This document shows positions 28,859 through 32,624 of a stretch of 64,000 nt of DNA, piece by piece. Below the pieces are notes generated by a model. It searched no databases, was not told the origin of the DNA, and worked only from the letters and a program-made list of their open reading frames with translations. Positions within the stretch are counted from its first letter, which is position 1, and every line of letters begins with the position of its first letter. This stretch comes from Acidimicrobiaceae bacterium. GTDB taxonomy: Bacteria > Actinomycetota > Acidimicrobiia > Acidimicrobiales > RAAP-2. The position numbers and the translations under genes are program-made. The DNA lies in NCBI GenBank assembly GCA_027314705.1, contig DAHVAJ010000047.1, forward strand, positions 1-64,000, written 5' to 3'.

Positions 28859-30259
28859 ATGTCCTCGGTCACCTTCGACCCGCTGGCGGAGCCGACCGTG
28901 CGGCGGAAGGTCAAGCGGACCGCCCCGAGGTCCCGGCCCGGCCCGCCTCCGCGGCCCTGGGTCGGCCCCCTGGCGCTCACCGTGGCCGCGTTCGGCCTGG
29001 TCCTCACGGTCTGGTCGGCGGTCGGTGCCGAAACCGGGAGCGAGCTGTCGGCACCGGGGGGTCCGGCCATCTTCATCGGCAGCTTCACCGGGCTGGTGGG
29101 GACGTATCTCGCCCTCCTCATGGTGCTCCTGGTCAGCCGCATACCGGCGGTGGAGCACCTCCTGGGCCAGGACGGACTGGTCCGCTGGCACCGGCGTCTG
29201 GCGCCATGGCCGCTGAGCCTGATCGGCCTCCACGCCGTCTTCATCACCATCGGGTACGCGCAGTCCGCCAAGGCGGGCACCTGGCACGAGCTCGGCGTCC
29301 TGGTCAAGAGCTACCCCGACATGCTGGCGGCCACCGTCGGTCTCGCCCTGATGGCCCTGGCCGGGATCACGTCCATCCGGGCCATCCGCAGCCGACTGCG
29401 CCGGGAGACCTGGTGGGTCATCCACCTCTATCTCTACCTGGCCATCGCCCTCTCCTTCGCCCATGTCCTGGCGCTCGGCCCGTCGTTCGTCGGCCACCCC
29501 CTGGCCAGAACGATGTGGACGCTGGCCTGGCTGGCCACGGCCGGCACGGTCATCGGCTTCCGGTTCGTGGTGCCGCTGGTCCGGAGCCTGCGGTACCGCC
29601 TCGAAGTCCAGGAGGTGCGGCCCGAAGCGCCGGGCGTGGTGTCCGTCGTCTGCTCGGGGCGCCATCTGGAGAAGCTCGCCATCTCCGGCGGCCAGTTCTT
29701 CGAGTGGAGGTTCCTGGCCCGCGGGCTGTGGTGGCAGGCCCATCCCTACTCGGTCTCGGCCCTCCCTCGGCCCCCCTACCTGCGCCTGACGGTCAAGTCC
29801 GTGGGTGACCATTCGGCCGCCGTGGCCCGCCTCCGCCCGGGTACCCGCATCGTGGTGGAGGGCCCCTACGGTGCCTTCACCCGTCATGCCCAGCGCCAGC
29901 GGACGGTGGCCCTCATCGCCGGAGGCATCGGGCTCACCGCCCTGCGTGCACTGCTGGAGGACCTGGCCCCGAGGACGGCGCCTCAGGTGGTGGTCCGGGT
30001 GACGAGGCCGGAGGAATTCGTCTTCCGCTCCGAGGTCGCCGAGCTGGTCCGTCGTCGCAAGGGACAGGTCCACGAGGTCGTCGGGGGTCGGAACAGGGCC
30101 AGATTCGACGCCGCCGTGCTCCGGAGCATGGTCCCCGACATCGCCCGGCGGGACGTCTTCGTCTGCGGCTCTGAGCAATTCGTCGAGCAGACGGTGGCCA
30201 AGGTGCGCAGTCTGGGTGTGGACCCGAAGTCGATCCACTACGAAGTGTTCGGGTTCTAG
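28859..30259 (+). CDS. ferric reductase-like transmembrane protein with FAD/NAD(P)-binding domain
   Basis: TM helices with heme-ligand-type His (RLAPWPLSLIGLHAVF; WWVIHLYLYLAIALSFAHVLALG), FAD motif HPYSVSALP, GPYGAFT, IAGGIGLTALRALLEDL, C-terminal VFVCGSEQF. Confidence 0.9.
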   Translation: MSSVTFDPLAEPTVRRKVKRTAPRSRPGPPPRPWVGPLALTVAAFGLVLTVWSAVGAETGSELSAPGGPAIFIGSFTGLVGTYLALLMVLLVSRIPAVEHLLGQDGLVRWHRRLAPWPLSLIGLHAVFITIGYAQSAKAGTWHELGVLVKSYPDMLAATVGLALMALAGITSIRAIRSRLRRETWWVIHLYLYLAIALSFAHVLALGPSFVGHPLARTMWTLAWLATAGTVIGFRFVVPLVRSLRYRLEVQEVRPEAPGVVSVVCSGRHLEKLAISGGQFFEWRFLARGLWWQAHPYSVSALPRPPYLRLTVKSVGDHSAAVARLRPGTRIVVEGPYGAFTRHAQRQRTVALIAGGIGLTALRALLEDLAPRTAPQVVVRVTRPEEFVFRSEVAELVRRRKGQVHEVVGGRNRARFDAAVLRSMVPDIARRDVFVCGSEQFVEQTVAKVRSLGVDPKSIHYEVFGF

Positions 30260-30285
30260 GCCATGGTGAACGACGGGACTGCCAC

Positions 30286-30792
30286 GTGAGACGGGCGCCG
30301 TTGGTCGCCGGGGTGACCCTGCTCGGTCTGATCGGGACCCTGACCTACCACCCGCCGCCCACGTCGTCGCCGGTGCTGGCCGCGCCCAAGAGCCAGATCC
30401 AGACCAAGAGCCCGTCCACCACGGCACCGAGCACGACCACCACGACGGCGGCCCCACCGGCGCAGCCGGGCGCGTCGACCCCTCCGTCGAGCGCCCCCCC
30501 GGCCGCCCCGGTGCTGAGGAGCGCCACGGGGCCCAACGAGCAGTACGGATACGGGACGCTCGCCGTCAAGGTGACCGTCAGCGGCAAGAAGATCACCGAC
30601 GTATCGGTCCAGAACCTCCAGACCGCGGATCAGTACTCCCAGCAGCTGGCCGCACAGGTGATCCCCATGCTCCGTTCGCAGGTGATGCAGGCCCAGAGTG
30701 CCAACATCAACGGGGTGTCGGGAGCGACGTACACGGCACAGGCGTACGCGACGTCCCTCCAGGCCGCGCTCGACTCCCTCCACGTTCCTTGA
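30286..30792 (+). CDS. FMN-binding domain protein, exported, Thr/Pro-rich linker
   Basis: N-terminal hydrophobic segment; KVTVSGKKITDVSVQNL; flavinylation-type motif GVSGATYT. Confidence 0.88.
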   Translation: MRRAPLVAGVTLLGLIGTLTYHPPPTSSPVLAAPKSQIQTKSPSTTAPSTTTTTAAPPAQPGASTPPSSAPPAAPVLRSATGPNEQYGYGTLAVKVTVSGKKITDVSVQNLQTADQYSQQLAAQVIPMLRSQVMQAQSANINGVSGATYTAQAYATSLQAALDSLHVP

Positions 30793-30923
30793 CCGGAAGC
30801 TGGGTCGGTGGCCAGGTTCCGGACCAGGACGCGACCAGCAACGCGATCGGGCCGGGCCGGGAGCTCGACGGACCCGGCGCCCTCGGATCGATCGACCCAA
30901 CCGCCAAAGCACAGACTCGGAGG

Positions 30924-31706
30924 ATGCCAACCGTGAACCCGTTCGCCCACGCAGAGACAGGTCCGAACGTGCCCGCCGGGGCCACCTCCTGGTGGGCACG
31001 GGTCGGCACCAGCATTTCGATCCGCACGCAGCGCCGGATGTGGGGGGAACGTGCCGAGACGTGGGACCGGCACAACGATGTCGGCATGGCCGATGTTGCG
31101 GCCACGGCCATGGACGCCTGTGACCTGCGGCCGGGCATGGACTGCGTCGACCTCGGCTGCGGAACCGGTCGGCTCGCGCTGATGCTGGGCGAGGCCGGAG
31201 CCAACGTCATCGGTGTCGACGTGAGCCCCTCGATGATCAAGCAGATGGAAGTGCTGGCCGAGGAGAAGGGCATCCACACCGTCCGCGGCATGGTGAGTCC
31301 TGTGGAGCGGCTCGACCTCCCGGAAGGGAGTGTCGACCTGATCGTGACCAACTACGCACTCCATCACCTACGCGACGCCGACAAGGAGAAGGTCGTGACC
31401 GCGGCCCTCGGGTGGTTGCGGCCGGGAGGCCAGCTGGTGGTGGCCGACATGATGTTGGGCAGGGGCGCCTCCCGTCGCGACCGTGAGATCATCGCCGGCA
31501 AGGTCCGGGTCATGGCCAAGAAGGGCCTGCCCGGCTACTGGCGGATCGCCAAGAACGCCGGTCGCTACCTCATTCGCGTGCACGAACGGCCCATCACCCC
31601 TGAAGCGTGGATGAAGCTCTTCGAGCAGGCCGGTTTCGGGGAGGTCGACAGCACCATGGTGGTGAACGAGGCCGCCGTGGTCACGGGCGTCAAACCCGGC
31701 AGCTGA
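30924..31706 (+). CDS. class I SAM-dependent methyltransferase
   Basis: VDLGCGTGRLALML; GVDVSPSMIKQ; LGWLRPGGQLVVADMM. Confidence 0.9.
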   Translation: MPTVNPFAHAETGPNVPAGATSWWARVGTSISIRTQRRMWGERAETWDRHNDVGMADVAATAMDACDLRPGMDCVDLGCGTGRLALMLGEAGANVIGVDVSPSMIKQMEVLAEEKGIHTVRGMVSPVERLDLPEGSVDLIVTNYALHHLRDADKEKVVTAALGWLRPGGQLVVADMMLGRGASRRDREIIAGKVRVMAKKGLPGYWRIAKNAGRYLIRVHERPITPEAWMKLFEQAGFGEVDSTMVVNEAAVVTGVKPGS

Positions 31707-31799
31707 CCGGGCGGTTCGTTCGTTCGACCCCGGCCCCTCGCTCCGTCTCCTGACCTGCCGATCGGGCCGTCACGCGCTCCGCGCCGTCGTGCCCCCGGG

Positions 31800-32624
31800 T
31801 CATGACACCACGTGGATCCCCGGGCTCCATCGCTCGGTGCCGTCGGGCCGGATCAGGTAGGCGTCGTACCCGTCGAGACCGTCGATCCGGTCGAAGGCCT
31901 CATCACCACCGACGGCGAGCGCAGTGGCGTAGGCGTCGGCGAGGGCCAGGCTGGGGCCGGTGACCGATGCCGACGCGGCGCGGACCGCGGGCGTGCCTCG
32001 GTGGGGATCGATGAGATGGAGGCCCCGTTCGTAGGCCCCCGAGGTGGCGATGGCGCCGTCGACTTCGACGATGCATGCGAGCGCCTCCTGATTCCAGGGA
32101 TGGCGGATCCCGATGCGCCACGCGTGGAGCGAGGGCGGGTGTCCCGACGTGGCGATGTCACCACCACCGTTGACCATCGCCGTGGTCAGCCCGGCGTCGA
32201 TCAGGACGGCCAGGGCCCCCTCGACGGCCCATCCCTTGACCAGCCCGGTGGGGTCGTAGCCACCGGGCAAGGCCCAGGGGTCGAACCATCCACCCGAACG
32301 ATCCCGCGCACGGGCGCACAGTTCGGCCACGTCGGCGAACTCCGGCGGGCACGAGCCAGCAGGCAGTGCACCGCGTCGCAGCCGGCTGAGCGGAGTGGAT
32401 GGATCCCAGGTGCTGAAGAGTGCGTCGGCGTGGTGGAGCCGGCCGCACGCCGCGCGAAGGGCTTCGTCGATCTCGGGACCTCGGCCGCCGTCGGGGTAGA
32501 CGGTGAACGACACCACCGTCCCCATCACCTGCTCGAGATGGACGACCGGAGCCGTCGCATCCGGGTCGACCTCACCGGACCGCTCGGATCCGGTCGCACC
32601 GTGCCTGGCCGGCCGCTGTCCCAT
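31800..32624 (-). CDS. apbE: FAD:protein FMN transferase (ApbE family)
   Basis: EQVMGTVVSFTVY; DPTGLVKGWAVEGAL; TAMVNGGGDIATSG; VDGAIATSGAYERG. Confidence 0.9.
   Translation of the reverse strand: MGQRPARHGATGSERSGEVDPDATAPVVHLEQVMGTVVSFTVYPDGGRGPEIDEALRAACGRLHHADALFSTWDPSTPLSRLRRGALPAGSCPPEFADVAELCARARDRSGGWFDPWALPGGYDPTGLVKGWAVEGALAVLIDAGLTTAMVNGGGDIATSGHPPSLHAWRIGIRHPWNQEALACIVEVDGAIATSGAYERGLHLIDPHRGTPAVRAASASVTGPSLALADAYATALAVGGDEAFDRIDGLDGYDAYLIRPDGTERWSPGIHVVS

Follow-up and report, generated by a model that had tools for sequence, protein, structure and literature searches.

Flavinylation-based electron-transfer systems of the MsrQ-like type have been described in Actinobacteria (Meheust et al. 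2021, PMC8238504), with a structural follow-up (PMC11334425). These systems are recognised by a two-heme membrane protein of the PF01794 family, an exported or anchored FMN_bind protein bearing an [S/T]GA[S/T] motif, and a clustered ApbE, and a C-terminal NAD-binding domain is frequent in them, though not universal (PMC8238504). Since the 2021 survey kept genomes with a leader on either the FMN_bind protein or ApbE, an extracytosolic ApbE is not a strictly defining feature (PMC8238504). Two further relatives provide points of comparison: SaFMN3 of Streptomyces azureus, the parent protein of the structure 8P2A, which carries three covalent FMN by mass and has an Em of -184 mV (PMC10339131), and SpNOX (8QT6), which uses NADPH and works without a flavinylated partner.

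We examined a 64,000-nucleotide stretch of an Acidimicrobiaceae genome (contig DAHVAJ010000047.1; the window) and found, by Pfam domain matches, genes for a reductase-like membrane heme protein with a C-terminal FAD/NAD(P)H domain (28859-30259, + strand, 466 aa), an FMN_bind protein (30286-30792, + strand, 168 aa) starting 26 bp 3' of the reductase gene, and an ApbE FMN transferase (31800-32624, - strand, ATG at 32624) lying ~1 kb from the FMN_bind gene. The original prediction had placed this trio together within 4 kb. All three proteins are indeed encoded there, but the set is not one operon, because a gene for a SAM-dependent methyltransferase (30924-31706, + strand, 260 aa; Pfam Methyltransf_25, 2e-21) lies between the FMN_bind gene and apbE, and apbE is convergent, on the opposite strand.

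Based on the observed gene content, conserved cofactor residues, folds and linkage, we consider it very probable that this locus encodes an MsrQ-like transmembrane electron-transfer system based on flavinylation, leading from NAD(P)H through FAD and two hemes to an outer, covalently bound FMN. The chain of NAD(P)H, heme and flavin put forward in the original prediction is supported as far as the sequence can be read, in that all of the needed features are present and conserved and their arrangement matches the published MsrQ-like system; the proposal is right but not new, as the arrangement had already been described (PMC8238504). Like the described actinobacterial systems, the window has a six-helix, two-heme PF01794 protein with a C-terminal NAD domain, an FMN_bind protein with an SGAT motif and a sequence-read anchor, and a clustered ApbE. 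Unlike them, it has an inverted apbE on the far side of the methyltransferase gene, and the encoded ApbE lacks a signal peptide and a lipidation site. Counting against the MsrQ-like reading are this leaderless ApbE, the inverted position of its gene, an Asn at position -6 of the flavinylation motif, and a match to NAD_binding_1 that falls below the cut-off.

The membrane protein matched PF01794 (Ferric_reduct; 54 bits, E 2e-14) and FAD_binding_8 above the cut-off, and scored 20.7 bits against NAD_binding_1 (PF00175), slightly below the 22-bit cut-off. Its predicted heme ligands make up two bis-His sites in a six-helix core (H111/H125 and H189/H202), spaced as would be expected of a two-heme protein of the FRE/NOX kind. 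We aligned the window protein with 12 homologues of the same order (36-62% identity) and found all four histidines to be invariant (13/13). In the FAD motif HPYS (residues 295-298) and the NAD(P) motif GGIGLT (residues 355-360), P296, G356, G358 and T360 were also invariant (13/13) and H295, like S300, nearly so; the key FAD and NAD residues were kept in 12-13 of the 13 proteins. The best structural match to an AlphaFold2 model of the protein (mean pLDDT 76) was SpNOX (8qt6, 8qta; E ~1e-15, TM-score by target up to 0.74), with further matches to DUOX1 and the human phagocyte oxidase, and a sequence profile search agreed with these matches. The C-terminal fold of the model matched the dehydrogenase domain of SpNOX. 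SpNOX is thus the closest fold to the window protein, sharing the six-helix heme core and FAD/NAD(P)H domain asked of a bacterial NOX, although the two are only ~17% identical.

We considered that the membrane protein might be mainly an NADPH oxidase, reducing O2 to superoxide or peroxide, with the FMN_bind protein as an accessory or a second O2-reducing site, based on the ranking of SpNOX, DUOX1 and the phagocyte oxidase among its structural matches as well as evidence that reduced SaFMN3 can pass electrons to dioxygen (PMC10339131). We think this unlikely, since the FMN_bind gene directly adjoins the reductase gene in nearly all loci, while neither SpNOX nor the eukaryotic oxidases depend on a flavinylated partner.

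The FMN_bind protein matched PF04205 above the cut-off (E 1.9e-8), with the domain at residues 88-163. Its N-terminus, VRRAPLVAGVTLLGLIGTLTY, has a twin-Arg start and a single hydrophobic segment, which a Pro/Ser/Thr-rich linker joins to the FMN_bind domain, and the protein is predicted to be exported and membrane-anchored. The GVSGATYT motif that had been pointed out in this protein spans residues 143-150, with SGAT at 145-148 and Thr148 (codon 30727-30729, + strand, in NGVSGATYT) as the predicted FMN acceptor. Every order homologue with an intact reading frame keeps the [S/T]GA[S/T] core except one, a natural variant with SGPT in place of SGAT (L038). A separate match of the window protein to CsgF (E 5e-4) was below the cut-off and was rejected as chance.

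In a profile search the FMN_bind domain matched 8P2A, the Streptomyces azureus FMN domain, with the alignment running through SGATYTS (E 1.1e-27), and its predicted fold likewise matched 8P2A. The window protein shares with SaFMN3 the FMN_bind subtype with an SGATYTS site and an N-terminal membrane anchor, but has one FMN domain where SaFMN3 has three, and Asn where SaFMN3 has Asp at position -6 before the acceptor Thr (PMC10339131); related Streptomyces-like loci have a reductase gene and apbE beside 2-3 FMN domains. Position -6 is occupied by N, Q, E, S, Y or D in relatives of the window protein. A review lists the -6 Asp as strictly conserved, yet reports for one protein that replacing it by Ala changed little (PMC12052999).

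The window ApbE matched PF02424 (134.7 bits, E 5.6e-39), and the GGD motif together with the Asp and Thr of DAYAT was found in all 13 ApbEs compared (the window protein and 12 related ones). None of these 13 has a hydrophobic leader, and the window ApbE has neither a signal peptide nor a lipobox, a point absent from the original prediction. Since the ApbE is leaderless and its substrate is predicted to be exported, there are two options for the site of flavinylation: either it is cytosolic and precedes export, or the ApbE reaches the outside by an unrecognised route. There are precedents for cytosolic ApbEs (PMC12052999). The window ApbE poses a concrete question, namely how an exported protein gets flavinylated by a leaderless enzyme. 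We also note that the ApbEs of two other clusters in the genome (L005 and L006, described below) are without a signal peptide though their presumed substrates are exported.

Linkage of the genes is conserved in relatives. Among 58 other genomes of the order we found 15 other FMN_bind loci, and 11 of these have a full-length reductase gene, then the FMN_bind gene, then apbE, all on one strand. In a twelfth (L028) the gene order is the same, with a short MsrQ-like protein replacing the full-length reductase; another (L027) is cut by a contig end, and two have no adjacent apbE, although one of the latter genomes (G029) encodes a same-subtype ApbE at another site. Similarly, at nine loci of the window ApbE subtype taken from a sample of the phylum, FMN_bind adjoins apbE in all nine and the reductase gene lies directly upstream in seven; two 9-Mb Streptomyces-like genomes in this sample have 1-3 FMN_bind matches per locus. 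The grouping on which the original prediction was built therefore recurs in relatives rather than dissolving there. The source genome itself (2.69 Mb, 131 contigs, 93% complete), searched family by family, yielded a single FMN_bind gene, two genes for Ferric_reduct proteins and three copies of apbE. Thus, the clustering is not chance, because the families have few copies in this genome and occur together in most FMN_bind-bearing relatives. The methyltransferase, in contrast, probably lies outside the system and is incidental: we rejected it as a component, as it recurs beside a reductase gene at a single other locus (L034). The homologue at that locus (L034:4011-4682, 46% identical) is divergent from the reductase gene beside it, by chance or by a loose association.

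In a tree of ApbEs, the FMN_bind type (n = 23; 22 linked to FMN_bind and the unlinked one of G029) and those linked to the tail proteins described below (n = 36) were split by one change with 100/100 support, in 100% of bootstrap trees; since the rows were picked by their neighbours, the tree shows two groups, not the behaviour of every ApbE. These results bear on whether the window apbE might serve some other protein, with the FMN_bind protein holding FMN non-covalently or left unmodified by this ApbE, as might be thought from the convergent apbE beyond a methyltransferase gene, the two further apbE genes in the genome and the missing -6 Asp. We regard this as highly improbable, since the window FMN_bind gene is the only one in the genome, both other apbE genes sit in FMN_bind-free clusters, and ApbEs of the window subtype accompany FMN_bind genes in relatives and make up a separate group in the tree.

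If the locus is an MsrQ-like electron-transfer system, then NAD(P)H, with the NAD(P)+ potential near -320 mV, would reduce the membrane protein's FAD at the cytosolic face, and electrons would cross one by one via two stacked hemes to the outer face. On the FMN_bind protein, Thr148 would carry an FMN attached by ApbE through a phosphoester bond; this FMN would take up the electrons, and the FMN_bind protein, tethered to the membrane by its flexible Pro/Ser/Thr-rich linker, would hand them to an extracellular acceptor. We infer the covalent flavinylation, the direction of flow and the donor from characterised homologues. The inward flow of electrons, from an extracellular donor to FMN and through the membrane protein to the cytosol, is possible in principle according to published work (PMC8238504), but is barely credible here, since the cytosolic domain is of the ferredoxin-reductase/NOX family, its best matches oxidise NAD(P)H, and reduction of NAD(P)+ by an FMN near -184 mV (PMC10339131) would be unfavourable. 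That ferric iron is the final acceptor would be a guess, and "ferric reductase" is here a family name only. No iron transporter was found among nine neighbouring proteins scanned with Pfam, and no VIT1 iron transporter in the window; VIT1 is on another contig (C18).

The window module adds a further example of a redox system that is common in Actinobacteria and for the most part uncharacterised, and is a tidy single-FMN model for the NADPH-FAD-heme-heme-FMN chain; comparison with its sister clusters may matter more than the module itself. The other two apbE clusters of the source genome (L005 on contig C2 and L006 on contig C39) are without FMN_bind. At L005 a PF01794 protein is encoded together with a NuoF-like one (Complex1_51K 5e-30, NADH_4Fe-4S), and L006 encodes a membrane protein with only weak PF01794-type similarity and a NuoF-like protein recognised only through similarity to relatives. 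Directly upstream of apbE, L005 has a gene for a membrane-anchored, low-complexity protein (L005:7757-8242, + strand) that ends in ...QQQVPVVSGSS, and L006 a gene for a similar tail protein (L006:9638-10147, - strand) ending in ...TATTGASAARP. Two tail proteins were compared with Pfam and NCBIfam, and neither had a family match. Clusters of this type share with the window an ApbE, a PF01794-type membrane protein and an anchored exported protein with a low-complexity linker, but differ in having a separate NuoF-like NADH subunit, a domain-free acceptor with a C-terminal [S/T]G[G/A]S tail, and an ApbE of the other group.

We think it fairly likely that in these FMN_bind-free clusters of ApbE with an MsrQ-like protein (with or without a NuoF-like one), found in the source genome and widely in Actinobacteria, ApbE has a new kind of substrate: an anchored, disordered, Pro/Ser/Thr/Gly-rich protein that would be flavinylated at its terminal [S/T]-G-[G/A]-S, so that the last serine of a flexible tether would bear the FMN. 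In the window, the FMN_bind protein would then be the folded-domain alternative to the tail. Tail genes were picked for their position upstream of apbE, a single hydrophobic segment and their composition; the motif played no part in the choice. In the source genome and order loci (L069-L107 in the order), 25 of 34 tail genes end in G, an optional A/S/G, and S/T, no more than two residues from the terminus, compared to 3.3 expected from shuffled tails (maximum 9 in 2000 shuffles). Similarly, the terminal motif was present in 11 of 23 tails from the phylum sample, compared to 1.7 in shuffles (maximum 7). In a set of 80 named loci (L179-L258; Streptomyces, Amycolatopsis, Nocardia, Pseudonocardia, Klenkia, Microbacterium, Gordonia, Nocardioides, Dormiibacterota and others), the filter retained 66 genes, and G[ASG]?[ST] forms the exact terminus of 54 of them, against a mean of 4.9 and a maximum of 13 in 5000 shuffles. 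Control ORFs passing the same composition and hydrophobicity filters rarely had the motif (3/291 for same-strand ORFs away from apbE, 14/272 for those on the opposite strand), a comparison slightly weakened in that many of these ORFs need not be genes. Both the shuffles and the filter-matched ORFs led us to reject the possibility that the motif simply reflects the Ser/Gly-rich composition of the tails. By position in the named set, S/T occurs at -4 in 62 of 66 tails, G at -3 in 41, G/A at -2 in 56 and S at -1 in 58, a pattern close to the ApbE target [S/T]GA[S/T].

In most tail proteins a net positive charge precedes the hydrophobic segment, and the tail is therefore predicted to lie outside the cell. 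The KRxHPA..R anchor of the FMN_bind proteins of L027 and L028 resembles that of the tail proteins of L073, L075, L083, L093, L099, L102 and L141, as if one anchor type could be fitted with a folded FMN domain in some proteins and a bare tail in others. No ApbE substrate of a disordered, proline-rich or C-terminal-tail kind was found in a limited literature search. Tail-type clusters could have been missed by the 2021 survey because it dropped genes without signal peptides. Flavinylation of the tail proteins, if real, would provide many "orphan" ApbEs with a substrate, mean that ApbE acts on unfolded chain ends, and make a domain-free, tethered flavin carrier testable in culturable Streptomyces, Amycolatopsis or Nocardia.

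We also note two features of the neighbourhoods of tail genes. At L005, genes for a membrane protein and a two-component pair (a response regulator, PF00072/PF00486, and a histidine-kinase-like ORF; L005:4451-7809, + strand) precede the tail-type cluster, which suggests that its expression is regulated. In addition, a second anchored protein, with an Asp/His/Glu-rich tail that usually ends in DDD or DDDD, recurs beside the tail gene, and is encoded upstream of it at L073, L087, L093, L094, L096, L097, L099, L107, L148, L153 and L171; the composition of this tail looks metal-binding and hints at metal reduction.
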